A DNA stretch of 42,771 nucleotides from a virus. How positions within the stretch are numbered: position 1 is the stretch's first letter; each line of letters starts with the position of its first letter. The DNA is taken from the IMG/VR virus record IMGVR_UViG_3300025413_000053, positions 1-42,771 of that record. One strand, written 5' to 3'. The translations under genes and the position numbers were made by a program. Under the pieces are notes generated by a model. The model saw nothing but the letters and a program-made list of their open reading frames with translations. It was not told the origin of the DNA and did no database searches. This document shows positions 2,292 to 38,119 of this stretch, piece after piece.

Positions 2292-2794
2292 TATTGTGTG
2301 ATTGGAGTACTAAGAAAAACGAATGATTGAGTTTTGATATCTAAAATGGTATTTATTGTTGTCGTGGAGTTAAAGATAGGGATTTGAACAATAATAGTTA
2401 TGTTGTAAGTGTTGTTATCAGTGTCAGGAATCACTTGTACATTGAGTAAATTAACTCTAGTTTCAAAATTATCAATTGAAGATACAATCAAATCTCCAAT
2501 AAGCTGAGCGTTAAAAGATGTAATTGGTTGAAATAAAAATTGTGTTAGATCCAAACCATACAAAGGAAATAAAAATCTCTGTCCAGGTTTTGTTGTTAAA
2601 AGGTTTCTGAGTGAGTTAAAAATAGCACTTTCGTCGTAATCCACTTTAATGTCATTTCTTTGTACTCTGTACCCAAGAGTTGTATCGTAACGACTATCTC
2701 TATCAAAATCCATATGCAAGTCTTGATATACAAACGGAAGATCGTTTCCATACTGTTGAGCTAACTGTTGGAGATTTGGTAACTTGATTGCCAC
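2291..2794 (-). CDS. Baseplate wedge protein, gp25-like (GPW/gp25 family)
   Basis: 167 aa, within the usual range for the gp25/gpW family (T4 gp25 is 132 aa). The segment TKPGQRFLFPLYGLDL near residues 88-103 is the family core (TxxGxR...P.YG..L). gp25 is part of the sheath-initiating wedge core. The start is GTG at 2794; the next possible start would remove family sequence. A late-type box (2800-2807) sits 5 nt upstream on the minus strand. The gene is the first of a minus-strand unit running to gp6-like and the PKD protein. Confidence 0.85.
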   Translation of the reverse strand: MAIKLPNLQQLAQQYGNDLPFVYQDLHMDFDRDSRYDTTLGYRVQRNDIKVDYDESAIFNSLRNLLTTKPGQRFLFPLYGLDLTQFLFQPITSFNAQLIGDLIVSSIDNFETRVNLLNVQVIPDTDNNTYNITIIVQIPIFNSTTTINTILDIKTQSFVFLSTPITQ

Positions 2795-2799
2795 AAAAT

Positions 2800-2807
2800 T
2801 ACTTATT
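2800..2807 (-). promoter_or_regulatory. Late-type promoter box AATAAGTA before gp25-like gene
   Basis: On the minus strand the box AATAAGTA ends 5 nt before the GTG start at 2794. T4 late promoters (TATAAATA) occupy about -13 to -6, so the predicted transcription start falls on the start codon. It is divergent from the box at 2845-2852. Confidence 0.55.
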
Positions 2808-2844
2808 ACACGGAAGTCTAAAGTCGAAAGTTTATGACTTTATA

Positions 2845-2852
2845 GATAAGTA
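2845..2852 (+). promoter_or_regulatory. Late-type promoter box GATAAGTA
   Basis: GATAAGTA ends 6 nt before the ATG at 2859. Together with the minus-strand box at 2800-2807 it forms a back-to-back late promoter pair in the 64-bp divergent gap. No Shine-Dalgarno is visible. Confidence 0.5.
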
Positions 2853-2858
2853 AAATCA

Positions 2859-3392
2859 ATGAGTAAATTTGATATACTTTTGGAAAAAGAATTGGAAAGG
2901 TTCCAACTTGGCGGAATAATCGTTGGCGATAGAGTTCGTTTTAAAGATGACGCTCTGAAGCACGACTATATCAAGAACAGAGGAAATTCATACATCGAAA
3001 TTATTAAAGCATGTATGCATCCTACCTTTGATCTTAACCTTAGAGTAGGAGCTGTTAAGAGCATTTATCCAACAACTACACAGAACTACGTAGGTGGTTC
3101 TGAAGCACCAGATGGTGTGTTTTTAGATATCTACATCGAATACGCTCCTGGCTTATATCGCAATCCTATGACTGTTCCTATTGAAGTCATTGATATGATT
3201 GATGATGGTAATAACAGAGGTCCAGTACCTGATAGTCTAGTCCGCAAGAACAAAGTTCACGGTCCAAAAGAAGTTGACACAGAACAGAACAACAATGCAA
3301 AGGGATTTGAAGTAAATCTCAAAAACAAAAATGTTGTTATTCCAGGTGGTAACAAATGGAACGATGAAAAGCCTGGCGGCGGGAATTTCTAA
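2859..3392 (+). CDS. Conserved-looking phage protein of unknown function
   Basis: 177 aa, start ATG at 2859 directly after a late-type box. The N-terminal 125 residues look folded (KFDILLEKELERFQLGGIIV, then a YIEYAPGLYRNPMTVPIEV segment), and the last 50 are polar, Asn/Lys-rich and probably disordered. No enzyme motif was found. Its late-type promoter suggests a virion or assembly role, but this is inference only. The end of the gene forms a perfect hairpin overlapping the stop codon (3383-3402). Confidence 0.7.
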   Translation: MSKFDILLEKELERFQLGGIIVGDRVRFKDDALKHDYIKNRGNSYIEIIKACMHPTFDLNLRVGAVKSIYPTTTQNYVGGSEAPDGVFLDIYIEYAPGLYRNPMTVPIEVIDMIDDGNNRGPVPDSLVRKNKVHGPKEVDTEQNNNAKGFEVNLKNKNVVIPGGNKWNDEKPGGGNF

Positions 3393-3402
3393 GTAGAAAT
3401 TC
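3383..3402 (+). other. Perfect 8-bp hairpin overlapping a stop codon
   Basis: GAATTTCT-AAGT-AGAAATTC is a perfect 8-bp stem with a 4-nt loop, and the TAA stop (3390-3392) lies at its apex. There is no T-tract, so it is not a standard intrinsic terminator. It may protect or process the 3' end. Confidence 0.4.
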
Positions 3403-3455
3403 ACGAAAACCACCCTACAATCACACTCACGCACAACCTATGTCTACTAATCAAA

Positions 3456-3623
3456 ATGAAAGATCTTATTAATACAATTCTAGTTCACGTTTTTTATGCT
3501 ATTGCAGATATCTCTTCAAAGCATTCAAATCGCTTTGCTTATAGAATCTATAAATGGTCAATAGATAATTCTCTGTACTTTGATGAAAAGCTAGATTACA
3601 AATTTTGGACAAACAACAAATAA
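3456..3623 (+). CDS. Small unknown protein upstream of nrdB
   Basis: 55 aa from ATG 3456. The sequence is aromatic-rich (HVFYAIADIS, RFAYRIYKW, DYKFW) and starts with a short hydrophobic helix. It ends 5 nt before the nrdB ATG and has codon use like its neighbours, which supports it being real. No family recognised. No clear promoter or ribosome binding site was seen. Confidence 0.5.
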   Translation: MKDLINTILVHVFYAIADISSKHSNRFAYRIYKWSIDNSLYFDEKLDYKFWTNNK

Positions 3624-3628
3624 ATTTT

Positions 3629-4603
3629 ATGAAAATATTCGAAGAGCAAATTAGCCGTAAACCTAACAACTACAAGTGGACAGACGAGTTCATTGAAGCC
3701 ATGCACAATGGATTTTGGACTGATAAAGAATTCTCTTTTAAGTCTGATGTTCAACAATTCAAAGTCAATCTAACAGAACAGGAAAGAGAGATCATCATTC
3801 GTACTCTTTCTGCGATTGGTCAGATTGAAATTGCAGTTAAAACATTCTGGGCAAAGCTTGGTGAAAACCTTCCTCAGCCTTGCTTTCAGGATCTTGGTTA
3901 TGTAATGGCTAACACAGAGGTTATTCACAACAATGCTTACGAAAGGCTTCTTGTTGTCCTTGGATTGGAAGATATTTTTGAAGAAAACCTCAAGCTTGAT
4001 TGGATCGAAGGTAGAGTCAAGTATCTCCGTAAGTATACTCATAAGTTCTACAAAGATTCAAAGAAGCAGTACCTTTATGCTATCATTCTCTTTACACTCT
4101 TTGTTGAAAACGTCTCGCTCTTTAGTCAATTCTATGTAATCAATTGGTTTGCACGCTTTAAGAATGTTCTTAAAGATACGGATCAACAAGTCAAATATAC
4201 ACGTAATGAAGAAAACATTCACGGTATTGTTGGTACAAAGATCATTAATACGATCAGAGAAGAATATCCCGAGCTCTTTGATAAGGAGCTCGAAGAACGT
4301 ATTCTCCACGAAGCTCAAGAAGCTTATAAGTCCGAAGCCAAGATTGTTGACTGGATGGTCAATGGAGTAAAGGAAGAAGGTTTGTCAGCTCCAGTTCTCA
4401 AAGAGTTCATCAAAGACAGAATCAATGAATCTCTCAAAGGAATTGGATTTCCAACAGCTTTTGAAGTTGATAAGCAAATTTTATCTAGTACAATGTGGTT
4501 TTCCGAAGAGTTATGGGGAAACAATATGTCCGACTTTTTTTCGAGTAGGCCAGTCGAGTACGCAAAAAAGAACCAATCGTTTTCTGAAGACGATTTGTTT
4601 TAA
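3629..4603 (+). CDS. nrdB: Ribonucleotide reductase class I, small (radical) subunit
   Basis: 324 aa from ATG 3629; an in-frame TTG at 3605 lies inside the preceding small ORF and was not chosen. The subunit generates the radical used by NrdA to make dNDPs. Metal-ligand candidates are E67 (QIEIAV), E97 and H100 (EVIH), E160 (VENVSL), and E195 with H198 (ENIH). Y104 is at the position of the E. coli radical Tyr122. The first ligand is Glu rather than the Asp of E. coli. The C-terminal tail SEDDLF is the typical NrdA-docking tail. Its partner nrdA lies downstream but is separated by a homing endonuclease gene. Confidence 0.95.
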   Translation: MKIFEEQISRKPNNYKWTDEFIEAMHNGFWTDKEFSFKSDVQQFKVNLTEQEREIIIRTLSAIGQIEIAVKTFWAKLGENLPQPCFQDLGYVMANTEVIHNNAYERLLVVLGLEDIFEENLKLDWIEGRVKYLRKYTHKFYKDSKKQYLYAIILFTLFVENVSLFSQFYVINWFARFKNVLKDTDQQVKYTRNEENIHGIVGTKIINTIREEYPELFDKELEERILHEAQEAYKSEAKIVDWMVNGVKEEGLSAPVLKEFIKDRINESLKGIGFPTAFEVDKQILSSTMWFSEELWGNNMSDFFSSRPVEYAKKNQSFSEDDLF

Positions 4604-4632
4604 AGATTCCTTATATTCTATAGGTCGTGTAG

Positions 4633-4640
4633 TATAAATA
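4633..4640 (+). promoter_or_regulatory. Exact T4 late promoter consensus TATAAATA
   Basis: TATAAATA matches the T4 late consensus perfectly and ends 5 nt before the ATG of the GIY-YIG gene at 4646. Several T4 homing endonuclease genes are also late-expressed. The sequence TATAGG just upstream (about 4618-4623) could be an early -10 box, but no convincing -35 was found. Confidence 0.7.
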
Positions 4641-4645
4641 AAGAT

Positions 4646-5362
4646 ATGAAAAAACCATATTTTTATATTATAAAATATATTCCTAGTCAGACATATTATG
4701 CAGGATGTAAGATAAATTTAAAAGCTGATTCCTCCAATTTTATGACAGAAAAAGGTTATCAAACTACATCGAAAGTCATTGAAGAACTAATCCAAAAAAA
4801 TGGATTACACACTTTTGAAATAATAAAAATAAAACACTTTGAAACGCCAGAAGAAGCACTATTGTATGAAACAAAGTTTTTATTAAAAGTAAATGCAGCA
4901 GAAAACGTAAGATTTTTTAATAAACACAACGGTGGTAAAAACTTTGTAAACAAAGGTGGATATAAACTATCAGAATCCACAAAACAAAAGATGAGAAAGC
5001 CAAAGACCAAAGAAACGATCGAAAAACAAAATCGAGAAAAGAGGACAAGGAACAAAGAAGTATATAAGAAAGCATATGCGACCAGAAAACAAAGATACTC
5101 TACATGGCATACAGCAGAACAAATAGAACAAATAAAGCAACGCAATGCTGTTTATTGGACAGACGAAAACAGAAAAACTCATTCCGAAAAAATGAAAGAG
5201 GTCCATAAGTTGAACCCTATAAGTGAAGAAACTAGACAAAAACATAGAGAGAAAAGTAAAGGAGCCAACAATGGAATGTTTGGTAAAAAACATAACCAAG
5301 AAACAAAAGAAAAAATGAAACTAGCATGGGCTAAAAGAAAACAAAGAAATATCCTTGAGTAA
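4646..5362 (+). CDS. GIY-YIG homing endonuclease with NUMOD3-like tail
   Basis: 238 aa. The N-terminal ~95 residues align with the I-TevI-type GIY-YIG nuclease: strand YFYIIKYI, then YYAG at 17-20 (the YIG half), catalytic Glu candidate E75 (LYETKFL), and N92 (FFNKHNGG). The rest is Lys/Arg-rich DNA-binding sequence with NUMOD3-like segments (LSESTKQKMRKP; ISEETRQKHREKS with NGMFGKKH). It sits alone between nrdB and nrdA and interrupts neither, as free-standing homing genes do, and has its own late promoter. Its likely target is the nrdA/nrdB region of endonuclease-free relatives. Confidence 0.85.
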   Translation: MKKPYFYIIKYIPSQTYYAGCKINLKADSSNFMTEKGYQTTSKVIEELIQKNGLHTFEIIKIKHFETPEEALLYETKFLLKVNAAENVRFFNKHNGGKNFVNKGGYKLSESTKQKMRKPKTKETIEKQNREKRTRNKEVYKKAYATRKQRYSTWHTAEQIEQIKQRNAVYWTDENRKTHSEKMKEVHKLNPISEETRQKHREKSKGANNGMFGKKHNQETKEKMKLAWAKRKQRNILE

Positions 5363-5379
5363 AGACAGATTTCAATTAT

Positions 5380-5387
5380 AATAAATA
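5380..5387 (+). promoter_or_regulatory. Late-type box AATAAATA before nrdA
   Basis: AATAAATA ends 7 nt before the nrdA ATG (5395). A late-type box for an early-function enzyme is unexpected. It may have been brought in or left exposed by insertion of the endonuclease gene that now separates nrdA from nrdB. Confidence 0.45.
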
Positions 5388-5394
5388 ACACAAC

Positions 5395-7044
5395 ATGACC
5401 GAACACATCCATTGGCTTAATAAAGATTCGAGGAAGTTCCTCGAACGTGGTTACCTTCTTGAAGGAGAAACTGCCGAACAACGTATCAGAGACATTGCAG
5501 ACTCAGCTGAAAAGCTTCTAAAGCTTGAAGGCTTTGCTGACAAGTTTGAAAGCTATGTTCATAAAGGTTTTTATAGTTTATCTAGTCCAGTGTGGAGTAA
5601 CTTTGGACGTACAAGAGGTCTTCCTATCTCTTGCTTTGGCAGCTACGTTGGAGACAACATGGATTCGATCCTTACAAAGGTCGCTGAAGTAGGAACAATG
5701 ACAAAGCACGGAGGAGGTACTTCAGCTTACTTTGGAGCAGTTCGTGGAAGAGGAACTCCAATTTCATCTGGTGGAGAATCAACTGGCTCTGTTCATTTTA
5801 TGGAGATGTTTGATAAGCTGATGAATGTCATCTCTCAAGGTAATGTTCGTCGTGGATCTTTTGCTGCCTATCTTCCTGTCGATCACCCTGATATTGAAGA
5901 ATTTCTTCAGATTCGTTCTGAAGGTAACGATATTCAGGATCTATCAATTGGTGTCTGTATTTCTGATGAGTGGATGAAGTCCATGATTGAAGGAGATAAG
6001 GATAAGAGAAAGATCTGGGGTCTAGTTATCAAGAAGCGTTTTGAGTCTGGCTATCCTTATCTCTTCTTTAGTGATAATGCTAACAATCAAGCTCCTCAGG
6101 TTTATAAAGATAAAGGTCTCAAGATTAACAATAGCAATCTTTGTTCAGAAATTTTCTTGAGTAATAGTGAAGATGAGTCATTTGTTTGTGATCTCTCTTC
6201 TCTCAACCTTGAACGCTGGGAAGAGTGGAAAGACACAGATGCAGTTGAAACACTTGTATACTTTCTTGATGCAGTAATGACAGAATTTATTAATAAGACA
6301 GAAGGAGCAAAATATATGGAAGCTCCTAGAAAGTTCGCTATTAACCAGAGAGCACTTGGTGTAGGTGTACTTGGATGGCATTCTCTTCTTCAATCTAAGA
6401 TGGTTGCTTTTGAATCAATGCAAGCAAAGTTGCTTAATGGAACTATCTGGAAGACTATCAGAGAACGAGCTGACAAGGCTTCTGAGGAACTTGCTAAGAT
6501 CTTTGGAGAACCACCGTTGCTCGAAGGATACGGACGTAGAAACACTACTACATTAGCAGTGGCTCCAACTACTTCCAGTGCTTTCATTCTTGGCCAAGTA
6601 TCTCCATCCATTGAGCCTGAGAATAGTTGCTACTACGTTAAGGCCTTAGCAAAAGGCAAGTTCACTTATAAGAATCCTTACCTCAAGAAACTTCTTAAAG
6701 AGAAAGGAAAAGACGATGATGATACATGGAAGGCAATTCTTGTATCGGGTGGCTCCGTACAACGTCTCGACTTTTTAGCCCAAGAAGAGAAAGACGTTTT
6801 CAAAACCTTTGGAGAAATCAGCCAGAAGGAAATTATCATTCAAGCTGCTGGTCGTCAAAAGTACATCGATCAGGGTCAGTCTTTGAATGTAATGATTCCA
6901 CACGAAACTAAACCCAAGGAAGTTAGTGAGCTTATGATTTTTGCGTGGGAGCAAGGAATTAAGAGTCTATATTATCAGAGAAGTTCTAATCCTGCTCAGG
7001 AACTTGCAAGATCAATTTTAAGTTGTGCAAGTTGTGAAGCCTAA
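5395..7044 (+). CDS. nrdA: Ribonucleotide reductase class I, large (catalytic) subunit
   Basis: 549 aa, shorter than E. coli NrdA (761 aa), and no N-terminal ATP-cone is present. Active-site residues are visible: C80 (PISCFG) and C265 (VCDLSSLNL) as the redox pair, and N248, C250 and E252 in NSNLCSE. The radical-transfer pair Y526-Y527 is in SLYYQR, and C544/C547 in the C-terminal CASC form the shuttle thiols. The reading frame is intact, with no intron or intein. Lack of the ATP-cone suggests loss of dATP overall-activity inhibition, useful for a phage building DNA. The order nrdB then nrdA is the reverse of most bacterial operons. Confidence 0.95.
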   Translation: MTEHIHWLNKDSRKFLERGYLLEGETAEQRIRDIADSAEKLLKLEGFADKFESYVHKGFYSLSSPVWSNFGRTRGLPISCFGSYVGDNMDSILTKVAEVGTMTKHGGGTSAYFGAVRGRGTPISSGGESTGSVHFMEMFDKLMNVISQGNVRRGSFAAYLPVDHPDIEEFLQIRSEGNDIQDLSIGVCISDEWMKSMIEGDKDKRKIWGLVIKKRFESGYPYLFFSDNANNQAPQVYKDKGLKINNSNLCSEIFLSNSEDESFVCDLSSLNLERWEEWKDTDAVETLVYFLDAVMTEFINKTEGAKYMEAPRKFAINQRALGVGVLGWHSLLQSKMVAFESMQAKLLNGTIWKTIRERADKASEELAKIFGEPPLLEGYGRRNTTTLAVAPTTSSAFILGQVSPSIEPENSCYYVKALAKGKFTYKNPYLKKLLKEKGKDDDDTWKAILVSGGSVQRLDFLAQEEKDVFKTFGEISQKEIIIQAAGRQKYIDQGQSLNVMIPHETKPKEVSELMIFAWEQGIKSLYYQRSSNPAQELARSILSCASCEA

Positions 7045-7076
7045 AACTCAAGTATCCCAGGATCAGAGTTTTGCTT

Positions 7077-7685
7077 ATGAATACCGTTGATCAAATCTCA
7101 AACAAACTATCTAGTTATAGGGACAAAAACAAAGAAGTTGCGTTAGCTAGAGAAAAAAAATATAGAAGCTCTCAGAGAGCTAAAGAGCTATCAGCAATAC
7201 GTTATAAACGTTGGAAAGAAAAGAATAAAGAAACTAACCTTTTGTATCAAAAACAATACGGAAAAGAAAATAGAACTAATCTTAGTTTATACCAAAAAGA
7301 ATATAGAGAAAAAAATAAAGAAATTTTACGAGTTTATAGAAGAAACTATAGACAAAATAGATTAAAAACCGATCAGTTATTTAAAATACAAGATAAATTT
7401 AGATTAGCAGTATTAAACGCTTTTAAACGAATAGGAAAAAATAAAACTTTTGAGACTCAAACTCTTTTAGGGTGTTCATTTCAAGAAGCCAAAGCTCACA
7501 TTGAATCTCTTTGGACAGAAGGAATGAATTGGGAAAACCATAGTATACACGGTTGGCATATAGATCACATTCGTCCTATTAGTTCATTCAAAGAACACGA
7601 ATTACATTTAATGAATCATATAACTAACTTGCAACCGTTATGGGCTGCTGAAAATTATACTAAAAGTGGAAAGTTTAATGAGTAG
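7077..7685 (+). CDS. HNH homing endonuclease
   Basis: 202 aa from ATG 7077, preferred over an in-frame TTG at 7071. The C-terminal HNH nuclease has GWHIDHIRPISSF (H161, D163, H164), N184 in TNLQPLW and N193 in AENYTKS. The N-terminal ~95 residues are Lys/Arg/Tyr-rich imperfect repeats (YKRWKEKNKE, YQKEYREKNKE), a common DNA-binding region of free-standing HNH enzymes. It starts 32 nt after the nrdA stop, so nrdA has a mobile nuclease on both sides. No introns are seen around it. Confidence 0.85.
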   Translation: MNTVDQISNKLSSYRDKNKEVALAREKKYRSSQRAKELSAIRYKRWKEKNKETNLLYQKQYGKENRTNLSLYQKEYREKNKEILRVYRRNYRQNRLKTDQLFKIQDKFRLAVLNAFKRIGKNKTFETQTLLGCSFQEAKAHIESLWTEGMNWENHSIHGWHIDHIRPISSFKEHELHLMNHITNLQPLWAAENYTKSGKFNE

Positions 7686-8050: not shown

Positions 8051-8058
8051 GATAAGTA
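8051..8058 (+). promoter_or_regulatory. Late-type box GATAAGTA upstream of hsp20
   Basis: GATAAGTA lies 75 nt before the hsp20 ATG, giving a predicted start near 8064 and a ~70-nt leader. The leader begins with one arm of the inverted repeat (8063-8078). Unlike most first genes here, hsp20 has a leader with a clear AAGGAG (8120-8125). Confidence 0.5.
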
Positions 8059-8636: not shown

Positions 8637-8653
8637 GTTGAGCACCAGGAGCA
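8637..8653. repeat. Inverted repeat flanking hsp20, right arm
   Basis: GTTGAGCACCAGGAGCA pairs with 8063-8078, so the 5' leader and the 3' trailer of an hsp20 mRNA could anneal. It abuts the next late-type box (ATTAAATA, 8653-8660). Confidence 0.7.
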
Positions 8654-8660
8654 TTAAATA
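8653..8660 (+). promoter_or_regulatory. Late-type box ATTAAATA before nucleotidyltransferase-like gene
   Basis: The box ends 5 nt before the ATG at 8666, with no Shine-Dalgarno between. It fits the spacing seen across the window for predicted leaderless late genes. Confidence 0.5.
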
Positions 8661-8665: not shown

Positions 8666-9718
8666 ATGTTTTCTTTTAAAAAGTACTATGAGGTTCTGTC
8701 AGAAGGAGGTTATGATTCTCCTCTGACTCAAAATACGGTCATCACACCCGAAGTTGTTAAAACGGTACTTCCAAAGGTATCAAATTTTATTGATCAATTT
8801 AATCAGTTTGCTAAAGAGAATAATATCTCGACAATTAAGATGGGAGCTCCTCTTGGAAGTACAGCCCACTACGAAAAAGATAAAGCAGACAAAACTTACG
8901 GAGACTTGGATTTGCAAGTTACCGTTCCAGCTGGAGATAATAAAACGTCTTCTTCATTGCAGACTTCCTGGTGGAAACTTATAGATGATTTCATTAAAGC
9001 TAAACAGCCACAAGGTATTGTAGCAAATAAGCCTGGACATCCTCTTTTTCAGATTGGAGAAAACGACTACGTACAAGTAGATTTAATCATTCATCCTGAA
9101 CCATTAGCTGAATGGGGCAAATGGAGAACGACTCCTCAGCAAGGACTGAAAGGTCTTTTGTATGGTAATATGTTCAGTGTTCTTGGAGAACTTCTCAATA
9201 TGAGTATTCAGCATGCTGGAGTTCAGTATAAACTCAAAGACAATAGTAGATTACCTTTTGGTTCTACGAGAGGAATCTACGAACTAAAAACAGTTACTAC
9301 AAACATTAAGACATTTATTCTTGATGTCTTTAAGCATGAAGCAGTTGTAAATCAAAAAGAAGAAGCAAAGCCTTCCAACGAATTAATTTCTAATCCTGGT
9401 GTACTCGCAAACAAGGCAGAAGAGGTTACGATTGATCATCTTGTAAAAGGACTTCACGGTCTAGTAACAAGTTTTGAACAGAACGATATGTTTGGTAAAG
9501 GTACACTTCAAGCATATCCAGACAAAGAAGCTTTCTTAAACAAGTTCTTTTCTCTTTACAAAGAGAAAGTTGATATCAATCTTGGAAGCTCAAAGAGAGA
9601 TAAAGCTTCTGAAGAAAAAGCTAACAAAGACAAACAAACAATTATGTCTGGTTTCAATCTTGTAAAAGATAAGCTACAAGATGTAGTAGGTCATGAGCTT
9701 CCTGGCTACAGCATATAA
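8666..9718 (+). CDS. Nucleotidyltransferase-fold protein
   Basis: 350 aa. The N-terminal half shows the polymerase-beta-type nucleotidyltransferase signature: GAPLGSTAHY with GS at 64-65, then YGDLDLQV giving D80 and D82, and a third carboxylate D139 in YVQVDLII. These three acids would bind two metals and transfer NMP to a substrate. The C-terminal ~130 residues are Lys/Glu-rich and helical with no recognised domain. The substrate is unknown; tRNA, protein (AMPylation) or small molecules are all possible. Its stop codon overlaps the late-type box of the next gene. Confidence 0.7.
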   Translation: MFSFKKYYEVLSEGGYDSPLTQNTVITPEVVKTVLPKVSNFIDQFNQFAKENNISTIKMGAPLGSTAHYEKDKADKTYGDLDLQVTVPAGDNKTSSSLQTSWWKLIDDFIKAKQPQGIVANKPGHPLFQIGENDYVQVDLIIHPEPLAEWGKWRTTPQQGLKGLLYGNMFSVLGELLNMSIQHAGVQYKLKDNSRLPFGSTRGIYELKTVTTNIKTFILDVFKHEAVVNQKEEAKPSNELISNPGVLANKAEEVTIDHLVKGLHGLVTSFEQNDMFGKGTLQAYPDKEAFLNKFFSLYKEKVDINLGSSKRDKASEEKANKDKQTIMSGFNLVKDKLQDVVGHELPGYSI

Positions 9719-9721
9719 TTA
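9714..9721 (+). promoter_or_regulatory. Late-type box TATAATTA overlapping upstream stop
   Basis: TATAATTA contains the TAA stop of the previous gene (9716-9718) and ends 5 nt before the GTG start at 9727. Confidence 0.45.
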
Positions 9722-9726
9722 ACTCT

Positions 9727-9927
9727 GTGAACTTCAAACAGTTTTTTCTAAACGAAGAAAAGAAATATAGTAAAGCTAAAGCTGAATATGTAGCTCATCC
9801 TGTTGATGGTCAAATTTGTAAGCATTGTACTATGTGGAGAGAGCCAAATAAGTGCACAGCAGTGAACGGTTATATCGATCCAAACGGTTGGTGCAAGTGG
9901 TACAAACGCTCGCATCACAAAGCCTAG
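9727..9927 (+). CDS. HiPIP-like four-cysteine mini-protein
   Basis: 66 aa with GTG start at 9727. The cysteine layout C31-x2-C34-x8-C43-x12-C56 with AVNGYIDPNGWCKWY closely follows high-potential iron-sulfur proteins (CxxC ... C ... VNGWC). It lacks a signal peptide and begins with a short MNFKQFF segment like other phage proteins. It may bind a [4Fe-4S] cluster or zinc. The role in the phage is unknown. The final HHK tail adds possible metal ligands. Confidence 0.6.
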   Translation: MNFKQFFLNEEKKYSKAKAEYVAHPVDGQICKHCTMWREPNKCTAVNGYIDPNGWCKWYKRSHHKA

Positions 9928-9950
9928 TACGTTCAAAACTCTGTTTTTTT

Positions 9951-9958
9951 GATAAGTA
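9951..9958 (+). promoter_or_regulatory. Late-type box GATAAGTA before methyltransferase
   Basis: GATAAGTA ends 5 nt before the ATG at 9964 and follows a T-run (9944-9950). No Shine-Dalgarno is present. Confidence 0.55.
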
Positions 9959-9963
9959 TTTGA

Positions 9964-10620
9964 ATGGAAAACACCACCTGGAATCTCTGGAGAGATTTCT
10001 GTAAACAAACAAATAGAGAATATCAGTGGGGTAACAAAGTCATTCATTTGTTAAATTCGTTAGAATTGTTACCTGCAAAAACTATCCTTGATGTAGGTTG
10101 TGGAACAGCTGAATTTACTTGCTGTTTCAAATCTCAATGTGAAACACTTTTAGCTTTGGATAATGACGATTATAGAACAGCTTGCGATTTACATTTTTAT
10201 AATACAGGTTTTGAAAATTACAGAGGACCATCTCCTGATATTATTTTCTTCAAGCAATCGTTTCATTTAATACCAGATGTATGGAAAGTTCTTGAGAAGT
10301 ATCCTCATTCAACAATTGTTATTCTTCAAGCTCCAAAACCTTCTTGGGAATCAAGCGAAGAGAGATGGAGTAATTCTCCTCTATGCATTAAAGCTATTGA
10401 AGATACATTTAAAGAGCTAGGTAGAGAAACTCATTCATACAAAGAAACTTTAGAGTTTCCTTTGAAAACTTCTTTTTATAAAGAACTAATACTAGGAGGT
10501 TTTACATCTCATCTGCGAAAATTTACTTTAGAACAGAGACTAGAAATTTGGGAGTCTTTTCATATAACTCACGACGAAATCTTGTATAAGGACGACTTAG
10601 GTATTCTAATAGTTAAATAA
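9964..10620 (+). CDS. Class I SAM-dependent methyltransferase-like protein
   Basis: 218 aa. Motif I is ILDVGCGTAEF at residues 41-51, the motif II acidic residue follows in LLALDND, and a motif IV-like strand PDIIFFKQSFHLIP comes next. This is the layout of class I methyltransferases of the UbiE/Methyltransf_11 kind. No DPPY/NPPY is seen, so it is unlikely to be a DNA N6-methylase. The C-terminal half (residues ~125-218) contributes substrate binding and is not recognised. The substrate is unknown. Confidence 0.75.
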   Translation: MENTTWNLWRDFCKQTNREYQWGNKVIHLLNSLELLPAKTILDVGCGTAEFTCCFKSQCETLLALDNDDYRTACDLHFYNTGFENYRGPSPDIIFFKQSFHLIPDVWKVLEKYPHSTIVILQAPKPSWESSEERWSNSPLCIKAIEDTFKELGRETHSYKETLEFPLKTSFYKELILGGFTSHLRKFTLEQRLEIWESFHITHDEILYKDDLGILIVK

Positions 10621-10652
10621 TACACCAATCAAAAGTCTTTATGGTTATTAAT

Positions 10653-10676
10653 AAAGTATTTTTAAATAAATACTTT
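10653..10676 (+). other. Hairpin covering a late-type box (AATAAATA at 10665-10672)
   Basis: AAAGTATTT (10653-10661) pairs perfectly with AAATACTTT (10668-10676), one base before the ATG at 10678. The right half holds the late-type box, 5 nt from the ATG. A read-through transcript would fold and hide the start, whereas a transcript begun at the box would not. Confidence 0.5.
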
Positions 10677-10677
10677 C

Positions 10678-10887
10678 ATGACGTCACCCGATCACAATAA
10701 AGAATGCTGGTCGGCTTTCTGTCCAAGCGAAGAAGTAGCTGAAAAAGAACTTCGAAAGGCGGTTGAGAGGCTTAGCAAAAAGAAATTAATAGTTAGTGCA
10801 AAAAAAGAAATGTTTGGGGAGCCAGGTCATACGTTTCATAATTTAACACCATACAGATTTACTATTATTACTGTACCGAAAGCATAA
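10678..10887 (+). CDS. Small protein of unknown function
   Basis: 69 aa. A charged helix (EEVAEKELRKAVERLSKKK) is followed by a beta-like stretch (YRFTIITVPKA). There is one Cys pair in ECWSAFC. No family recognised. Its start is tied to the late-type box in the preceding hairpin, and its stop codon lies within the next promoter box. Confidence 0.55.
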   Translation: MTSPDHNKECWSAFCPSEEVAEKELRKAVERLSKKKLIVSAKKEMFGEPGHTFHNLTPYRFTIITVPKA

Positions 10888-10890
10888 ATA
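10883..10890 (+). promoter_or_regulatory. Late-type box CATAAATA overlapping upstream stop
   Basis: CATAAATA includes the TAA of the upstream gene (10885-10887) and ends 7 nt before the ATG at 10898. Confidence 0.5.
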
Positions 10891-10897
10891 AGATTAT

Positions 10898-11173
10898 ATG
10901 TCTTTCACGTTTCTTCCATTATCAGCTCATGAAACAGCTGCACCAAGAGATCACTCGTTTGTTGAAGTAGATAGCACTCTTCCTCTATTTGCACAAGTAA
11001 CTTATCAGACAGGTACTTGGCAAATTCCTGAGTTTGATAATATAGCCATTACAAATGATGGTAATGGAAATCCTTTGCAATATGACTATTCTTTAAACGG
11101 AACAATTGTTGCAACTCTTTCTTGTACATACGATGGTAACAATTATCTGACAAACATTCAGCAGATATTATAA
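10898..11173 (+). CDS. Small virion-associated protein with shared N-terminal module
   Basis: 91 aa, beta-rich (FDNIAITNDGNGNPLQYDYS). The N-terminal stretch HETAAPRDHSFVEVD followed by PLFAQVTY resembles the module in the 13434 and 20073-23378 proteins (ET..SYI...NDQ.RP.FAK..Y). This suggests a common docking segment for attached virion proteins. The LNGTIVATLSCTYDGNNY segment looks like a small beta sandwich. It is co-transcribed with the Cys-rich LamG gene, 14 nt downstream. Confidence 0.55.
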   Translation: MSFTFLPLSAHETAAPRDHSFVEVDSTLPLFAQVTYQTGTWQIPEFDNIAITNDGNGNPLQYDYSLNGTIVATLSCTYDGNNYLTNIQQIL

Positions 11174-11187
11174 AGGAGATTGTGTAA

Positions 11188-12771
11188 ATGGACTGCACAG
11201 ATCCAAATAATATAACATGTGATTGTAGTCTATTAAATGATTTCGGTTACTGTAATGGGGAAGTTATACCAGATTCTTTTGGAGGCTTTTGTGAAAATGA
11301 TTGTATTACACTCGGCCCATTTTGTTGTTTTACTGGTACTAATGGTATTTGTCAAAATCAATATTCTCTATCGACTTATTGTTATCCAGAAATAGATCCT
11401 AACGGGACTCCTTGTACAGCAGAGGATCTAGATGTTCTTGGATATTGTTTTGGGGATTATCCTACCATAGACCGTTGTGGAAATATATATTCCCCAAGTA
11501 ATGAAGATGGAAATACTTTATATGATGATAACGGAAATAGTTGTGCATTACAAGGATCGGATTGTGCTGGTTATTGCTGCACTTATGGTTTAGGATGTTC
11601 AAACGGATCTGCTTGTAATAATGAACCCGTAACTGGTGGATTTGGTTCATGTGACGATGGAAGTTGCACATATTCAATAGATTCTTGTCATGATTGTTCT
11701 GGAAACTATATAGGTGGTAATGATAGCTGTGGTATCTGTGGCGGTAGTTGTTTTGGGGATTGTTGTGGTGGAACTTGTGGGATTGTTTTAAATACCGATT
11801 ATTTTGGAAACAATTGCTGTTCTAATGTTGAAGGTATAGACTTTTTTGGTAATAACCTCTGTGATGGATTTACAGGAACTTGTACAGATATAGCAAACGC
11901 TTGTGGTGAAGATCTTATTGGATGTTTATACAAAGACTATAATAACAATTGTACAAGTAGATCTTTAATTCTTTTTTATACAAATTTAAAAAACGGACTT
12001 TTAGCTTATTGGAAACTAGATGACTCTAGTTGGGCTGATTCATCACGAAATAACAACACATTAATAAATAATGGTGGAGTAACAACCACTACTGGTATAT
12101 TAAATGGAGGGGCATCTTTTGATGGTGATAATTCTAAATATTTATCTTTAAGCGGAAGTCAATTTAATTTTGGAACAAATGATTTTTCTATATCATTTTG
12201 GATTTATGACTATGGGACTTCAGCAACAAACCCAGCAGTCTTTTCAAATAAAATTGATCAATTCGATCCAGTAAATAGTACAGCAATTTGGGCAATAAAT
12301 GGACAACTTTCACTTTATACTAACGGAGCAAGTGTAGGTCAAATTATAGGTGGAACATATACATTAAATTCTTGGCATCATATATGTGTTAATGTTGCAA
12401 GTGGAATTATTAATTTTTACATTGATGGAGAACTTACTCACTCTCAAGGATTAGGAACTTTAATTAATTTTAGTTACGATGGGTTTTATATGGGAACGAG
12501 TTGGGACGGTACAAACGGAACATTTAATGGATTAGTAGATGAAGTTGCTATTTGGAATAGAAAAATAAAAAATGGAGATATTGTTAAACTATATAATAAT
12601 GGTCATGGATACGAAATACCTCTTAGTACTGGTAGTGCAATACAACCTTCTGTACTTGTTTCTTATAAGGTAGGGGCATTACCTATACCTTCTAATCTGA
12701 ATACACCGAGTATTAGAAATGTATTACTTGCAAAAAATACTAACTTTCCATTGATAATTCATGTAGGGTAG
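11188..12771 (+). CDS. Cys-rich adhesin-like protein with C-terminal LamG/jelly-roll domain
   Basis: 527 aa. Residues 1-265 contain about 36 cysteines in short Gly/Asn/Asp-rich turns, including CHDCSGNYIGG...CGICGG, a motif of secreted 'DCxGxCGG' repeats. Residues ~268-475 form a concanavalin/LamG-3 domain: LAYWKLDDSSWADSS, GGASFDG, FSISFWIY, WHHICVN, INFYIDGE and GLVDEVAIWNR. The last ~50 residues (VSYKVGALPIPS...) may attach it to the virion. LamG domains bind glycans, so a receptor-binding decoration or fibre tip is inferred. It has a strong AAAGGAG site (11172-11178), as expected for an internal cistron. The many cysteines imply disulfides formed after lysis, or metal binding. Confidence 0.75.
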   Translation: MDCTDPNNITCDCSLLNDFGYCNGEVIPDSFGGFCENDCITLGPFCCFTGTNGICQNQYSLSTYCYPEIDPNGTPCTAEDLDVLGYCFGDYPTIDRCGNIYSPSNEDGNTLYDDNGNSCALQGSDCAGYCCTYGLGCSNGSACNNEPVTGGFGSCDDGSCTYSIDSCHDCSGNYIGGNDSCGICGGSCFGDCCGGTCGIVLNTDYFGNNCCSNVEGIDFFGNNLCDGFTGTCTDIANACGEDLIGCLYKDYNNNCTSRSLILFYTNLKNGLLAYWKLDDSSWADSSRNNNTLINNGGVTTTTGILNGGASFDGDNSKYLSLSGSQFNFGTNDFSISFWIYDYGTSATNPAVFSNKIDQFDPVNSTAIWAINGQLSLYTNGASVGQIIGGTYTLNSWHHICVNVASGIINFYIDGELTHSQGLGTLINFSYDGFYMGTSWDGTNGTFNGLVDEVAIWNRKIKNGDIVKLYNNGHGYEIPLSTGSAIQPSVLVSYKVGALPIPSNLNTPSIRNVLLAKNTNFPLIIHVG

Positions 12772-12784
12772 GTAAAATAGTAAT

Positions 12785-13024
12785 ATGGAAGAACCAAACT
12801 TACCTACAAAAATAGCTAACTTGGGAAAAGCAATTATGGAAGAAACAAAAGCAATAGTCCAAGGTCAGGAGCCAGTTAGTGGAGATGAGCAAGTTAGAAG
12901 ACTTAACATCTGTATGGGCTGTGCTTATTATGATAATGGAAAGTGTTTAATTTGTGGTTGTAACATGAACGTTAAGACAGGTTTCCGTTCAGCTCATTGC
13001 CCTCATACTCCTCCTAAGTGGTAA
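12785..13024 (+). CDS. Small zinc-finger/ribbon protein
   Basis: 79 aa. Six cysteines are arranged C43xxC46...C54xxC57xC59...C72 with a final His-Pro-Trp region (CPHTPPKW), which fits a zinc-binding knuckle. The N-terminal 40 residues form a charged helix. Similar short CxxC...CGC proteins occur near fibre genes of many phages, but their role is unknown. It lies 13 nt after the LamG gene and is probably the last gene of that operon. Confidence 0.65.
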   Translation: MEEPNLPTKIANLGKAIMEETKAIVQGQEPVSGDEQVRRLNICMGCAYYDNGKCLICGCNMNVKTGFRSAHCPHTPPKW

Positions 13025-13163
13025 TTTTTAAAAAAGAGAATAAATAACTTTACCTTGATAAACAAATACCCAAAGCCTGTCCACAACTTGATAGTGTATA
13101 GATGGAGGGAATTGCTAAGAGATTCTGCGATTGACAGTACTCAATCAAACATAAAACAAAATT
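13025..13163 (+). promoter_or_regulatory. Late promoter and ~110-nt leader sharing an element with 16116-16135
   Basis: AATAAATA at 13039-13046 is followed by a long untranslated stretch to the ATG at 13164. The 20-nt segment 13042-13061 matches 16116-16135 at 18 of 20 positions, at the same place relative to a small well-expressed-looking gene. No Shine-Dalgarno is visible directly before the ATG. Confidence 0.5.
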
Positions 13164-13358: not shown

Positions 13359-13365
13359 GCAGGTT

Positions 13366-13413
13366 AAAACACTCCTTGAAGAAAATAAACACTTCAAGGA
13401 GTGTTTTGTTTTT
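13366..13413 (+). terminator. Very strong intrinsic terminator
   Basis: A 16-bp perfect stem, AAAACACTCCTTGAAG (13366-13381) with CTTCAAGGAGTGTTTT (13392-13407), has a 10-nt loop and a following T-rich tract. Confidence 0.92.
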
Positions 13414-13420
13414 AATTAAA

Positions 13421-13428
13421 GATAAATA
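13421..13428 (+). promoter_or_regulatory. Late-type box GATAAATA
   Basis: GATAAATA ends 5 nt before the ATG at 13434, immediately after the strong terminator, so this gene must be transcribed from here. Confidence 0.6.
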
Positions 13429-13944: not shown

Positions 13945-13952
13945 AATAAATA
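13945..13952 (+). promoter_or_regulatory. Late-type box AATAAATA before repeat fibre
   Basis: AATAAATA ends 9 nt before the ATG at 13962. Confidence 0.45.
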
Positions 13953-20060: not shown

Positions 20061-20068
20061 TACTTATC
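20061..20068 (-). promoter_or_regulatory. Late-type box GATAAGTA before membrane protein
   Basis: On the minus strand GATAAGTA ends 5 nt before the ATG at 20055. It lies within the 17-nt gap after the fibre gene. Confidence 0.55.
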
Positions 20069-23378: not shown

Positions 23379-23388
23379 AATCTATTAT

Positions 23389-23856
23389 TTAAGCATTTTC
23401 TATCTCTATAACGTCAGAATTGCCGAATAGTTTCTTCATAATATCTTCTCTTGAGGCTACTAAAACATTCATATTGTTTGTGACACTATTGCTTCCTTTA
23501 AGTTGAGCTATTTCCTTTTTAGCTTCAATGTCCATCCTTTTCATCTTTTCATCTCTATCTGCCTTCTTGTCTATGAGAGTGGATTTGTGTAGAGTATCAA
23601 TAAGCTTTGAAGTTGCTGACATGACTTCAGCAAGTGCAGCAACATCATCAGGATTTTGATTTTGAACTACATACGATGACATATCCTGAGCAGTACCAAC
23701 ACCGACATCAATAAGAGCCTTTGATTGTTTAAGAACGTATTGCTTTAAAGAATCTTCTGTCAATTCATCTTCTTGAAATCTAGCTCTATCAGTGTTTGGT
23801 GCAGGAAGCTTAAACGAAGACAGCTCGTCTATCAGTGTACTAATATCATCACTCAT
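23389..23856 (-). CDS. Small terminase subunit, gp16-like (candidate)
   Basis: 155 aa, near the 164 aa of T4 gp16. The central part is helical (LKQYVLKQSKALIDVGVGT, DVAALAEVMSATSKLIDTLHK), as in gp16 family members, where it forms the coiled oligomerisation core. The C-terminal NNMNVLVASREDIMKKL resembles the gp16 tail (NIQNATVFMGSPTELMDEI). gp16 regulates the gp17 packaging motor at pac sites. No large terminase is in the window. It could instead be another oligomeric helical phage protein. Confidence 0.55.
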   Translation of the reverse strand: MSDDISTLIDELSSFKLPAPNTDRARFQEDELTEDSLKQYVLKQSKALIDVGVGTAQDMSSYVVQNQNPDDVAALAEVMSATSKLIDTLHKSTLIDKKADRDEKMKRMDIEAKKEIAQLKGSNSVTNNMNVLVASREDIMKKLFGNSDVIEIENA

Positions 23857-28745: not shown

Positions 28746-28769
28746 AGTGTTATATATTATTTAAAAGGT

Positions 28770-32372: not shown

Positions 32373-32392
32373 GCCAATTACTTAATATGAAA

Positions 32393-33180: not shown

Positions 33181-33188
33181 TATTTACT
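33181..33188 (-). promoter_or_regulatory. Late-type box AGTAAATA
   Basis: On the minus strand AGTAAATA ends 5 nt before the ATG at 33175; no Shine-Dalgarno is seen. Confidence 0.45.
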
Positions 33189-35299: not shown

Positions 35300-35307
35300 T
35301 ATTTATT
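35300..35307 (-). promoter_or_regulatory. Late-type box AATAAATA
   Basis: On the minus strand AATAAATA ends 5 nt before the ATG at 35294. Confidence 0.6.
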
Positions 35308-36216: not shown

Positions 36217-36224
36217 TATTTATT
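36217..36224 (-). promoter_or_regulatory. Late-type box AATAAATA at head of tail cluster
   Basis: On the minus strand AATAAATA ends 7 nt before the ATG at 36209. Confidence 0.5.
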
Positions 36225-36296: not shown

Positions 36297-36851
36297 ATGA
36301 AAAGAACACCATCTATCACATATCTAAAAAAGAATCTCAACTCAAACTTTATTAAAGAAGGACCTTTTTTCACTCTAAAAGTGAAGTCTTCTTCTAATGA
36401 TTTTGACAAGCTCTATATTGGAATGCATGAACCATACTCTGATGGTTGTGAAGATTGTCAGTATCTCGTCCATTTTGGAACAGAACAAAACATTCTAAAG
36501 GATCAGTATGGAATTGATGATATTAAAGATGTCGTAGCAATTGGAAATAGTATTGCTACTAAATCAGATTTAACTTTTAGCGATCTCGAGAAAGAAGTTG
36601 AAGCAATCAACAAAGCTCGATCACTCAAGACAAAGAAAAAGCTTCTCTCCAAAGAGAATAATGTGAAGCATACTATGTCGAATTATATCGATCAATATGT
36701 AGCACTTATTGATGGAGAGCGTTACTATGTAACAACTAACAAATACAATGGTAAATATACCAAATTCAGTGTTAAATATTTCAATAGTTACGAAGATGTT
36801 ACAGACAAAGTCGTCTTGAAGAAGATCAAAGATCTGATTGAATCTCGTTGA
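36297..36851 (+). CDS. Unknown early-region protein
   Basis: 184 aa from ATG 36297; an in-frame TTG at 36264 lies in the promoter and is rejected. A beta-rich N-terminal half (FFTLKVKSSSNDFDKLYIGM, CEDCQYLVHFG) is followed by a Lys-rich helix (INKARSLKTKKKLLSKE) and a C-terminal beta section (YVALIDGERYYVTTNKYNG). No family recognised. Its 3' end contains the CTGTCC of the next promoter. Confidence 0.55.
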   Translation: MKRTPSITYLKKNLNSNFIKEGPFFTLKVKSSSNDFDKLYIGMHEPYSDGCEDCQYLVHFGTEQNILKDQYGIDDIKDVVAIGNSIATKSDLTFSDLEKEVEAINKARSLKTKKKLLSKENNVKHTMSNYIDQYVALIDGERYYVTTNKYNGKYTKFSVKYFNSYEDVTDKVVLKKIKDLIESR

Positions 36852-36852
36852 G

Positions 36853-36881
36853 CTGTCCGTCAGTTCGATCGAAGATATAGG
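36853..36881 (+). promoter_or_regulatory. CTGTCC-N17-TATAGG promoter (twin 2)
   Basis: CTGTCC (36853-36858), a 17-bp spacer and TATAGG (36876-36881), 16 nt before the RadA-like ATG at 36898. Spacer end and -10 (TCGAAGATATAGG) match twin 1. Confidence 0.55.
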
Positions 36882-36897
36882 AACAATCAAACAACAC

Positions 36898-37797
36898 ATG
36901 AACGTACTGACCAACACCAATAATACCAACTTCACGCGAGCCTCTGACGTCAAGATTCCTGACGTCTATAACCGGAGGTTCAAGACTGGCAAAGACGATC
37001 TCGACTCCGTATTCGGTGGTCTTGGCTTTCTTCCTGGCATGGCCTTCACATTGGCTGCTGCTCCTGGTACTGGCAAGACTTCGATGCTCATTCAGATCCT
37101 TGAGCTCCTTGAGCGGACTGGTAAGAAGACTGCTTATATTTCTGGAGAAGAGGGCATTGAGCAGCTTGCATTTACTGCAAAGCGGCTTGGTGTGACTCAG
37201 GTTCCTCTTGCGAACATCACTGATATTGATACGATCTGTGACGAGATCAAGAAGAATAAGTTCGACTTTGTCGTCCTTGACAGCTTGCCTGCTCTGACGA
37301 CCAAGAAAGCTCTGAACAAGAAGCAGGTCGAAGAGTATGTCGCAACCAAGATCATCCAGACTGCCAAGGAGCAGGAGGTTGTGATTGGCACGATCTTGCA
37401 CTTCACGAAGACTGGAACCTACAAAGGCTCGACTCTTCTGCCTCACAGCGTTGATGCAAACCTTATCATGACTCGGAACAAGGAGGATGATGGTCTGCGT
37501 GACGTTGATGTGACGAAGAACCGGTTTGGTTCGACTGGCTTTGTGAGCTTTCCGATCACGGAGACTGGCTTCGACTTCCAAGCTGTCGAGACTGAGCGAC
37601 CAGGATCAAAGTCCAATAGTCCTTCCAAGAAGGACTTGGTCTTAGAAGCACTTGGTCAGCCTAAGACGATCCAGACTCTAGTCAACGACACTTCAATCAG
37701 CTCAGGCTACATGGGAGTGTTGCTCAGGGAGCTGACTCAGGAAGGTAAGATCAAGAAGAATGGCAAGGGAGTAGCAGCGATCTACTCTAAGAAATAG
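36898..37797 (+). CDS. RadA/Sms-like recombination ATPase
   Basis: 299 aa from ATG 36898. Walker A AAPGTGKTS (54-62), ISGEEGIEQ (81-89), Walker B FVVLDS (124-129) and the RadA signature KNRFG (207-211) are present. The N-terminal zinc finger and C-terminal Lon-like domain of bacterial RadA are absent; instead the last ~55 residues look like a winged helix (KKDLVLEALG...MGVLLRELTQEGKIKKNGKG). It probably promotes strand exchange or branch migration, a Sak4-like role. Base composition is about 50-55% GC in sampled lines against ~35% in the upstream gene, suggesting recent acquisition. Confidence 0.8.
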   Translation: MNVLTNTNNTNFTRASDVKIPDVYNRRFKTGKDDLDSVFGGLGFLPGMAFTLAAAPGTGKTSMLIQILELLERTGKKTAYISGEEGIEQLAFTAKRLGVTQVPLANITDIDTICDEIKKNKFDFVVLDSLPALTTKKALNKKQVEEYVATKIIQTAKEQEVVIGTILHFTKTGTYKGSTLLPHSVDANLIMTRNKEDDGLRDVDVTKNRFGSTGFVSFPITETGFDFQAVETERPGSKSNSPSKKDLVLEALGQPKTIQTLVNDTSISSGYMGVLLRELTQEGKIKKNGKGVAAIYSKK

Positions 37798-37808
37798 ATC
37801 GTATTTTC

Positions 37809-37816
37809 AATAAGTA
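37809..37816 (+). promoter_or_regulatory. Late-type box AATAAGTA
   Basis: AATAAGTA ends 6 nt before the ATG at 37823. Confidence 0.45.
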
Positions 37817-37822
37817 TTCACG

Positions 37823-38119
37823 ATGAAAACATTAAATCTCGTGAATACTTTTGAAATTCTTGCTACAGCTTCTGCAGTAGTACTCGAAGGAAGACTCATC
37901 ATTCCTTCACTTGTTGATCTTGAATATGAACCTGACAATGAGTTCTTAAAGCTTCAGTGGCATGAAGATGGTTTAGACTTTGAAGTTGCCTTTACAGAAG
38001 GCGACAATCAAGAAGTCACAGTTGAAGGTCCTGTACTGACTCTTACAAACAACGAAGGTGAAGAAGAGCAGATTGAACTTCTTACTGAAATTGATGTTGA
38101 AAGTCAATTGAATTACTAG
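37823..38119 (+). CDS. Small acidic protein, unknown function
   Basis: 98 aa, strongly acidic, beta-prone (GLDFEVAFTEGDNQEVTVEGPVLTL). Acidic small phage proteins sometimes mimic DNA, but no specific motif supports this. No family recognised. Its box-to-ATG spacing fits the late group. Confidence 0.55.
   Translation: MKTLNLVNTFEILATASAVVLEGRLIIPSLVDLEYEPDNEFLKLQWHEDGLDFEVAFTEGDNQEVTVEGPVLTLTNNEGEEEQIELLTEIDVESQLNY

Follow-up and report, generated by a model that had tools for sequence, protein, structure and literature searches.

The 42,771-nucleotide viral record IMGVR_UViG_3300025413_000053, analysed here over its whole length (hereafter, the window), belongs to a T4-like phage far from the named ones, and 20 of its gene starts stand just downstream of a T4-type late promoter box, 14 behind an exact NATAARTA at a gap of 5 to 9 nt and 6 behind a box with one mismatch. 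We consider it likely, with a probability of roughly 85%, that most late mRNAs of this phage are leaderless or nearly so, a view founded on the boxes, their spacing, the scarcity of Shine-Dalgarno (SD) sequences and the recurrence of the layout among relatives. In T4, the late box occupies positions -13 to -6 from the transcript start, according to PMC1524935, or about one helical turn upstream of it, according to PMC2988020. If the boxes of the window follow T4 geometry, which the argument assumes, a gap of 5 nt makes +1 coincide with the first base of the start codon, as an earlier note on this DNA had proposed, and gaps of 6 to 7 nt leave 1 to 2 bases.

Box spacing in the window

The earlier note had listed 16 starts preceded by a late box, and all 16 have one at the gap given there, 12 exact and 4 with one mismatch. 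We add four more, at 40335 and 13962 on the plus strand and at 23378 and 32372 on the minus strand. In 17 of the 20 box-led cases another gene of that strand ends 8-75 nt before the start, a layout nearer to one promoter per gene than to one per operon.

The box is not a common word in itself, since 200 dinucleotide shuffles average 28.0 exact copies and the two strands of the window hold only 21; 4 of the 21 lie fully within called open reading frames (ORFs). An exact box is found at gap 5-7 before 13 of the 51 window starts, whereas 2,000 dinucleotide shuffles of the 60-nt upstream regions average 0.10 such starts and never exceed 2. No start has one at gap 0-4 and a single start has one at gap 8-50. 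The comparison with shuffled upstream regions that the earlier note had suggested thus gives a frequency far above chance and does not refute that note's reading. Three starts (33175, 35294 and 36209) were set at that note's ATG inside a longer ORF; dropping them leaves 11 of 48 at gap 5-7. The exact spelling matters as well. Among the 21 orderings of the letters of ATAAATA, which served as a word control and some of which are the same box out of register, ATAAATA itself occurs four times at gap 5 and no other ordering more than once (average, 0.1); at gap 5-7 it occurs 7 times and the best other ordering 4 times. Its gaps in the window are 5 (four boxes), 7 (three) and 9 (one).

Recurrence among relatives

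Relatives of the window were found as 78 loci in viral contigs, one of which, L002 (record G007, 53.7 kb), is a near twin that shares its gp44 and its box-led genes with the window; certain loci overlap or nearly duplicate one another, so that counts of homologues are partly redundant. The rule applied across phages was an ATAAATA box followed within 60 nt by the first ATG with an open frame of at least 60 aa. Under this rule, the 203.8-kb relative G002 has 24 of its 64 boxes at gap 5, 9 at gap 6 and 4 at gap 7, whereas other orderings of the letters average 1.6 at gap 5 and reach 9 at most. A gap of exactly 5 is the most frequent one in the window, G002, G003, G005 and the named phage HTVC008M. 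Over the window and 77 loci, an ATG ORF follows within 60 nt of 317 exact boxes, with 51, 56 and 33 at gaps 5, 6 and 7 and a total of 12 at gaps 0-4. With the looser word [ATC]TAARTA, for which the count carries no chance level, 65 of the 78 loci have a box at gap 5-7. Several relatives carry TTAAATA or CTAAATA at the same place, and TTAAATA is among the 7-mers most enriched at gap 5-7; NTAARTA is therefore the better consensus. A homologue of gp55 is encoded by 5 of the 11 contigs of the clade (G001, G002, G009, G010 and, weakly, G008).

We propose that in this clade T4-type late promoters, read by the host RNA polymerase with a gp55-like sigma factor, have become fused to coding sequence. 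The gp55-bearing polymerase would start 6 nt after the box, as in T4, so that most late mRNAs would begin at the start codon or 1-2 bases before it, and ribosomes, probably in the 70S form reported for other leaderless mRNAs, would start on the 5'-terminal AUG or GUG without an SD. Early genes may share the layout by way of sigma70. More tentatively, a late gene without an SD would be poorly translated from read-through RNA, in which case the choice of promoter could also gate translation.

Comparison with T4, cyanophages and SAR11 phages

The short-gap layout is commonest in the clade of the window and mixed in SAR11 phages. The analysis covered 60-98 kb of each of T4, P-SSM2, Syn9, S-PM2, KVP40 and RB49. 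Of the 22 ATAAATA boxes of T4 that have an ATG ORF within 60 nt, none has a gap below 12, none in Syn9 has one below 10 and none in the RB49 and KVP40 parts one below 20, so that in these four stretches box and codon are 10-39 nt apart; in P-SSM2 a single box stands at gap 5, and in the S-PM2 part there is one at gap 5 and another at gap 2, all others being long. The late promoters of the clade resemble those of T4 (gp55/gp33/gp45) in the box NATAARTA and in their place before virion genes, and 5 of the 11 contigs have a gp55 homologue, one of them weak, but T4 combines long gaps with an SD-like tetramer at 15 of 18 long-box genes, whereas the clade combines gaps of 5-7 nt with an almost complete lack of SDs. 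Cyanophage late promoters (S-PM2, Syn9 and P-SSM2; NATAAATA) have the same degenerate first base, according to PMC2984593, and their long-box genes rarely have SDs; they differ from the clade in their long gaps, with one gap-5 box each in P-SSM2 and S-PM2 and none in Syn9.

For both HTVC008M and Mosig the recorded host is the cultured SAR11 strain HTCC1062. ATAAATA boxes at gap 5 and at gap 12-36 number 9 and 6, respectively, in HTVC008M, 6 and 19 in Mosig, and 3 and 17 in the OM43 phage Melnitz; at gap 5, no other ordering of the letters exceeds one in HTVC008M. Pooled, the three phages have 18 ATAAATA boxes at gap 5 and 1 at gaps 6-7. In the first 98 kb of HTVC008M, all 8 gap-5 starts coincide with GenBank coding sequence starts, including those of gp25 (31132), gp48 (19456), the DNA end protector and a putative tape measure protein; gp18 and gp23 of this phage are predicted to be leadered, with an SD. 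In a midpoint-rooted gp44 tree of 23 rows, from which T4 and Melnitz are absent because gp44 was not found in the pieces analysed, the cyanophages P-SSM2 and Syn9 cluster with HTVC008M and Mosig, and the clade of the window stands apart from them (100/100). The short gap thus lies on both sides of this split with cyanophages nearly devoid of it, which implies that it was gained twice or lost in cyanophages.

Further afield, a scan for ATAAATA-N5..7-ATG, with matches in a reversed control given second, yielded 0 and 1 in phiM12 (Sinorhizobium), 1 and 0 in Cr30 (Caulobacter), 27 and 19 in SCTP-2 (Salicola), 4 and 4 in XG4 (Pseudoalteromonas), 4 and 0 in RM378 (Rhodothermus) and 14 and 5 in Agrobacterium phage Atu_ph07. 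With the ORF rule, seven 20-kb pieces of Atu_ph07, picked for their matches, contained no box at gap 5 and one at gap 7.

Cellular genomes offer a parallel. The TA-led leaderless genes of Deinococcus-Thermus and Actinobacteria lack an SD and have their -10 element some 10-12 nt upstream of the start codon, as described in PMC3160421; for D. radiodurans, PMC12340547 gives a distance of about 6-7 bp. The box-led genes of the window show the same closeness of promoter and codon and the same absence of SDs. The TA-led genes, however, use host sigma promoters in cellular genomes, whereas the window has a phage late-sigma box together with sigma70-like early promoters. Among phages, PMC3160421 reports leaderless initiation in lambda, and PMC5312081 remarks that leaderless transcripts are frequent in phages. 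The lambda gene concerned is cI; late transcripts of Thermus phages are leaderless as well. These known leaderless phage messages differ from those predicted here in having no T4 late box.

Bases around the predicted transcript start

After long-gap boxes, the sixth base is a purine in 72% of cases in T4, RB49 and KVP40, in 79% in cyanophages and in 88% in HTVC008M, Mosig and Melnitz, as one would expect of +1. The gap-5 start codons comprise 90 ATG and 12 GTG, TTG being outside the search. Gene-level counts were made in seven clade genomes (G007, G002, G001, G008, G003, G005 and G010), and gene starts for the counts of SDs, coupling and position -1 were those of leftmost-ATG ORFs of at least 90 aa, without curation. 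In these genomes, whose rows share genes, a pyrimidine precedes 87 of 102 gap-5 starts but only 382 of the remaining 691 (p = 2e-9); for HTVC008M, Mosig and Melnitz the proportions are 17 of 18 and 250 of 511 (p = 1e-4). This excess fits initiation at the start codon itself: a purine at -1 would allow transcription to begin a base too soon, giving the message a one-base leader, and this may be why purines are avoided only where the codon must be +1.

Scarcity of ribosome-binding sites

SD-like tetramers at the usual distance occur in 48 of 818 genes in the seven clade genomes; the T4 stretches have them at 53 of 101 genes and HTVC008M at 69 of 158. Among 125 clade genes with an exact box at gap 5-9 only one has such a tetramer. 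The association between SD and box class is not significant in any single clade genome (p from 0.14 to 1), because SDs are rare throughout; it reaches p = 0.024 in HTVC008M and 0.019 in Mosig. For the window, the earlier note had reported no SD at its listed starts, which holds overall, with the qualification that 8666 has AGGAG 14 nt upstream; lying upstream of the box, this motif falls outside the predicted transcript. The two leadered contrast cases are as described in that note: hsp20 (ATG 8134) has AAGGAG in its leader and a distant box (GATAAGTA, 8051..8058, plus strand, 75 nt before the codon), and the internal cistron 11188 has AAAGGAG (11172..11178, plus strand).

In G001, tetramers 7-9 nt before the start give 26 matches for 109 genes close behind another and 4 for 117 genes with free upstream DNA, in a tally of matches that may count a gene twice. 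This distribution suggests that the ribosomes concerned can probably use SDs, and that promoter-led genes do without them. Ribosomal protein S21, of interest for its bearing on translation initiation, is encoded in 5 of the 21 records (HTVC008M, Mosig, Melnitz and the clade contigs G001 and G010), and none was found in the fragments nearest the window.

Counterevidence and alternative explanations

Several observations weigh against leaderless late messages as the general rule. No [ATC]TAARTA box at gap 5-7 was found in 13 of the 78 loci, and at gap exactly 5 ATAAATA is absent from G009 and occurs once in G011, compared with twice in the reversed control. Gaps in G001 and G008 spread from 5 to 14, and leaders of several bases are common in both. 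At gap 5-7, the count of G008 (13) is lower than that of the best other ordering (17) and the count of G010 equals it (7 and 7); in G001, gap 5-7 gives 20 against 15, whereas gap 5 alone gives 5 against 7. The looser word [ATC]TAARTA places 2 of 142 T4 boxes at gap 5. No gp55 was found among the 40 proteins scanned from the window, itself a fragment, or in the fragments G003-G007 and G011, the near twin G007 included. Position +6 is not uniquely marked, as +7 and +8 are also purine-rich in cyanophages and the SAR11/OM43 phages. The pyrimidine excess at -1, its rows not being independent because relatives share genes, is significant by itself in G002, in G005 and, barely, in G010, and not in G007, G003, G001 or G008; that T4-type phages lack such an excess at the matching position (0.49) also belongs here. 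In the window, 11 of the 37 genes of at least 90 aa lack a promoter word, an SD and coupling alike under the rules applied. Among the 20 box-led proteins, six (8666, 9964, 10898, 36209, 37823 and 40335) have no homologue in the loci of relatives, and three more (13962, 28745 and 32372) no alignment near the start. Finally, cyanophage long-box genes mostly lack SDs (present in 1 of 7 in Syn9, 1 of 7 in P-SSM2 and 4 of 10 in S-PM2), so the absence of an SD alone is no proof of a leaderless message.

The wide gaps lend some substance to the proposal that a leader of 3-9 nt is usual and that the exact coincidence with +1 is one end of a range. Many boxes in G001, G008 and G010 stand at gaps 8-14, as does, at gap 9, the box before 13962 in the window. 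We regard this as unlikely for the group as a whole, although it may hold for some genes or subclades alongside leaderless messages: exactly 5 is the commonest gap in the window, three relatives and HTVC008M, and the pooled SAR11/OM43 phages drop from 18 boxes at gap 5 to 1 at gaps 6-7.

Under another proposal, the messages have leaders and come mainly from upstream read-through, initiation in an A/T-rich region is independent of SDs, and the box sets only the time of transcription. The same-strand gene close upstream of 17 box-led starts, the 36% GC content of the window and the cyanophage genes that have long leaders and mostly no SD are all in keeping with this. A/T richness is not enough, however, to account for 4 gap-5 boxes in the window and 24 in G002, where other orderings average 0.1 and 1.6, and SDs are used where a short-gap box is missing, as at 8134, at 11188 and at the G001 genes close behind another; we find this explanation distinctly improbable.

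Very improbable, in our judgement, is that the promoters are real and the named starts wrong, with the true starts further in behind an SD-bearing leader: three of the named starts lie inside longer ORFs, some are GTG (2794, 9727 and 32372) and 9 of the 20 proteins have no homologue aligned near the start, but gp25 homologues align from the start with GTG and gap-5 box conserved in two of them, the depositors of HTVC008M picked the same starts, and the pyrimidine excess at -1 is tied to these very codons. For the gp25-like protein, 51 of 78 matches align from the first 12 residues, and for 17 of these 51 an exact box stands close to the homologous start, at gap 4-11; G003 and L004, about 50% identical, retain both the GTG and a gap-5 box. 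The 2859 protein has 72 matches, of which 71 are aligned from the start and 21 of those have an exact box. Homologues of 20055 in G001 and G003 have the same start residue and boxes at gaps 8 and 7, the L003 homologue of 33175 begins MSE behind CTAAATA, and the L004 and L003 homologues of 35294 have boxes at gaps 5 and 6.

Early promoters

The leaderless layout inferred for late genes appears to extend to early ones. Four plus-strand starts at 41.1-41.9 kb, absent from the earlier note, have a sigma70-like -10 element that ends exactly 6 nt before the ATG, which would place +1 at or next to the codon: TTGACA-16-TATAAT at 41062..41089 (ATG 41096), TTGATA-17-TAGAAT at 41331..41359 (ATG 41366), TTGACA-17-TAGACT, whose -10 has two mismatches, at 41592..41620 (ATG 41627), and TTGAGA-18-TATAAT at 41811..41840 (ATG 41847). 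A stricter -35/-10 scan passes three of them, excluding 41627, and adds 12785. Across the seven clade genomes, 27 of 290 strict pairs have an ATG at gap 5-7, compared with 0 of 251 for a reversed -35 and 9 of 244 for a scrambled -10; in G003, none of 17 strict pairs has one. The evidence for the early class is thinner than that for the late class. The earlier note had ascribed leaderless messages to late first genes; for late genes this is the best-supported reading, but these four sigma70-like starts and the 17 box-led genes behind a neighbour indicate that the layout is confined neither to late genes nor to first genes.

Between the -35 and -10 of the promoters before 40335, 41096, 41366 and 41627 (40290-41630) lies the spacer CCTCCTCCTAAAGC or a close copy, whose CCTCC core resembles an anti-SD sequence but is outside the predicted transcripts; it may be the site of a regulator. 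Elsewhere, a terminator-like hairpin with a T run stands just before the TTG start 16497 (16470-16542), and ATG 16542, which a TTGATA/TATAAT promoter precedes at gap 10, may be the true start instead.

A possible lineage-wide layout and its implications

In its widest form, the proposal is that SDs were largely lost across the lineage, that leaderless messages became the default for early and late genes, and that a promoter for each gene also decides its translation, while cultured SAR11 phages, and perhaps Melnitz, are mixed and share the 5-nt placement, the layout having been gained separately or lost in cyanophages; we see the chances of this as about even. The T4 late promoter and leaderless genes are both known, and what would be new is their fusion as a lineage-wide layout in T4-like phages. 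A literature search largely without subscription papers, with the Syn9 transcriptome study outside it, found no report of such a fusion, and in the accessible text the word "leaderless" was paired with T4-like or SAR11 phages only within reference titles. T4 is the model of phage late transcription, and its leaders mostly carry SDs; if our interpretation is true, the late sigma box survived a rebuilding of ribosome recruitment. This bears on how infected cells sort phage messages from those of the host, and also on gene calling in viral metagenomes, where SD-based start models could misplace such starts. The layout can be tested in the cultured SAR11 phages HTVC008M and Mosig.

Box-led genes along the window

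Late boxes precede virion genes, but also the genes of ribonucleotide reductase and a homing endonuclease. Gaps of exactly 5 nt, as the earlier note had them, separate exact boxes from seven starts. On the plus strand, these are TATAAATA at 4633..4640 (ATG 4646, homing endonuclease-like), GATAAGTA at 9951..9958 (ATG 9964), AATAAATA at 10665..10672 (ATG 10678) and GATAAATA at 13421..13428 (ATG 13434), and on the minus strand AATAAGTA at 2800..2807 (GTG 2794, gp25-like baseplate wedge), GATAAGTA at 20061..20068 (ATG 20055) and AATAAATA at 35300..35307 (ATG 35294). The same gap follows four one-mismatch boxes, ATTAAATA at 8653..8660 (ATG 8666) and TATAATTA at 9714..9721 (GTG 9727, which also has TATAAT at gap 7) on the plus strand, and AATATATA at 28751..28758 (ATG 28745) and AGTAAATA at 33181..33188 (ATG 33175) on the minus strand. 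The gaps of 6-7 nt in the same note, which named no strand for those five starts, likewise hold, all with exact boxes: on the plus strand GATAAGTA at 2845..2852 (gap 6, ATG 2859), AATAAATA at 5380..5387 (gap 7, ATG 5395, ribonucleotide reductase large subunit), CATAAATA at 10883..10890 (gap 7, ATG 10898) and AATAAGTA at 37809..37816 (gap 6, ATG 37823), and on the minus strand AATAAATA at 36217..36224 (gap 7, ATG 36209).

Two of the four added starts have exact plus-strand boxes, AATAAATA at 13945..13952 (gap 9, ATG 13962) and the late-type AATAAGTA at 40321..40328 (gap 6, ATG 40335), which overlaps a sigma70-like TTGACA...TAGAAT (gap 11). The other two have minus-strand variants, CTTAAATA (TTAAATA) at 23386..23393 (gap 7, ATG 23378, a virion structural protein match) and ATTAAGTA (TTAAGTA) at 32379..32386 (gap 6, GTG 32372).

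The 64-base interval between the divergent genes at 2794 and 2859 (2795-2858) contains two outward-pointing late boxes, each at a short gap. In the region 3605-7685, the two ribonucleotide reductase subunit genes flank the homing-endonuclease-like gene at 4646, which is led by a late box of its own, and an endonuclease VII-like gene comes next. An N-terminal stretch appears similar by eye in the box-led proteins 13434 and 23378 and, more weakly, in 10898, which suggests a repeated attachment domain.

The phage and its host

Matches to PHROGs in the window comprise gp25-like and gp6-type baseplate wedge proteins, ribonucleotide reductase, a homing endonuclease, Hsp20, dUTPase and the clamp loader gp44, so that T4 core genes (gp25, the gp6-type wedge, gp44, ribonucleotide reductase and dUTPase) are present. 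Identity of gp44 to named phages is at most 36.5% among the 25 best named records, and positions 9500-14000 showed no DNA similarity to named phages. No psbA-type gene was found in the 21 records. The window ribonucleotide reductase has three matches in genome contigs, from Prevotellaceae (56%), a Lokiarchaeota metagenome-assembled genome (74%; possibly a phage contig) and Saprospiraceae (45%), which give no basis for assigning a host. A Bacteroidota host is presumably unlikely, given the TTGACA/TATAAT promoters and the apparent SDs. A tRNA-Met (CAT) gene is present in the near twin G007 at the equivalent of window positions 39037-39109 (mapped from L095:2593-2665), and ten scanned pieces of G002 contain 14 tRNA genes.

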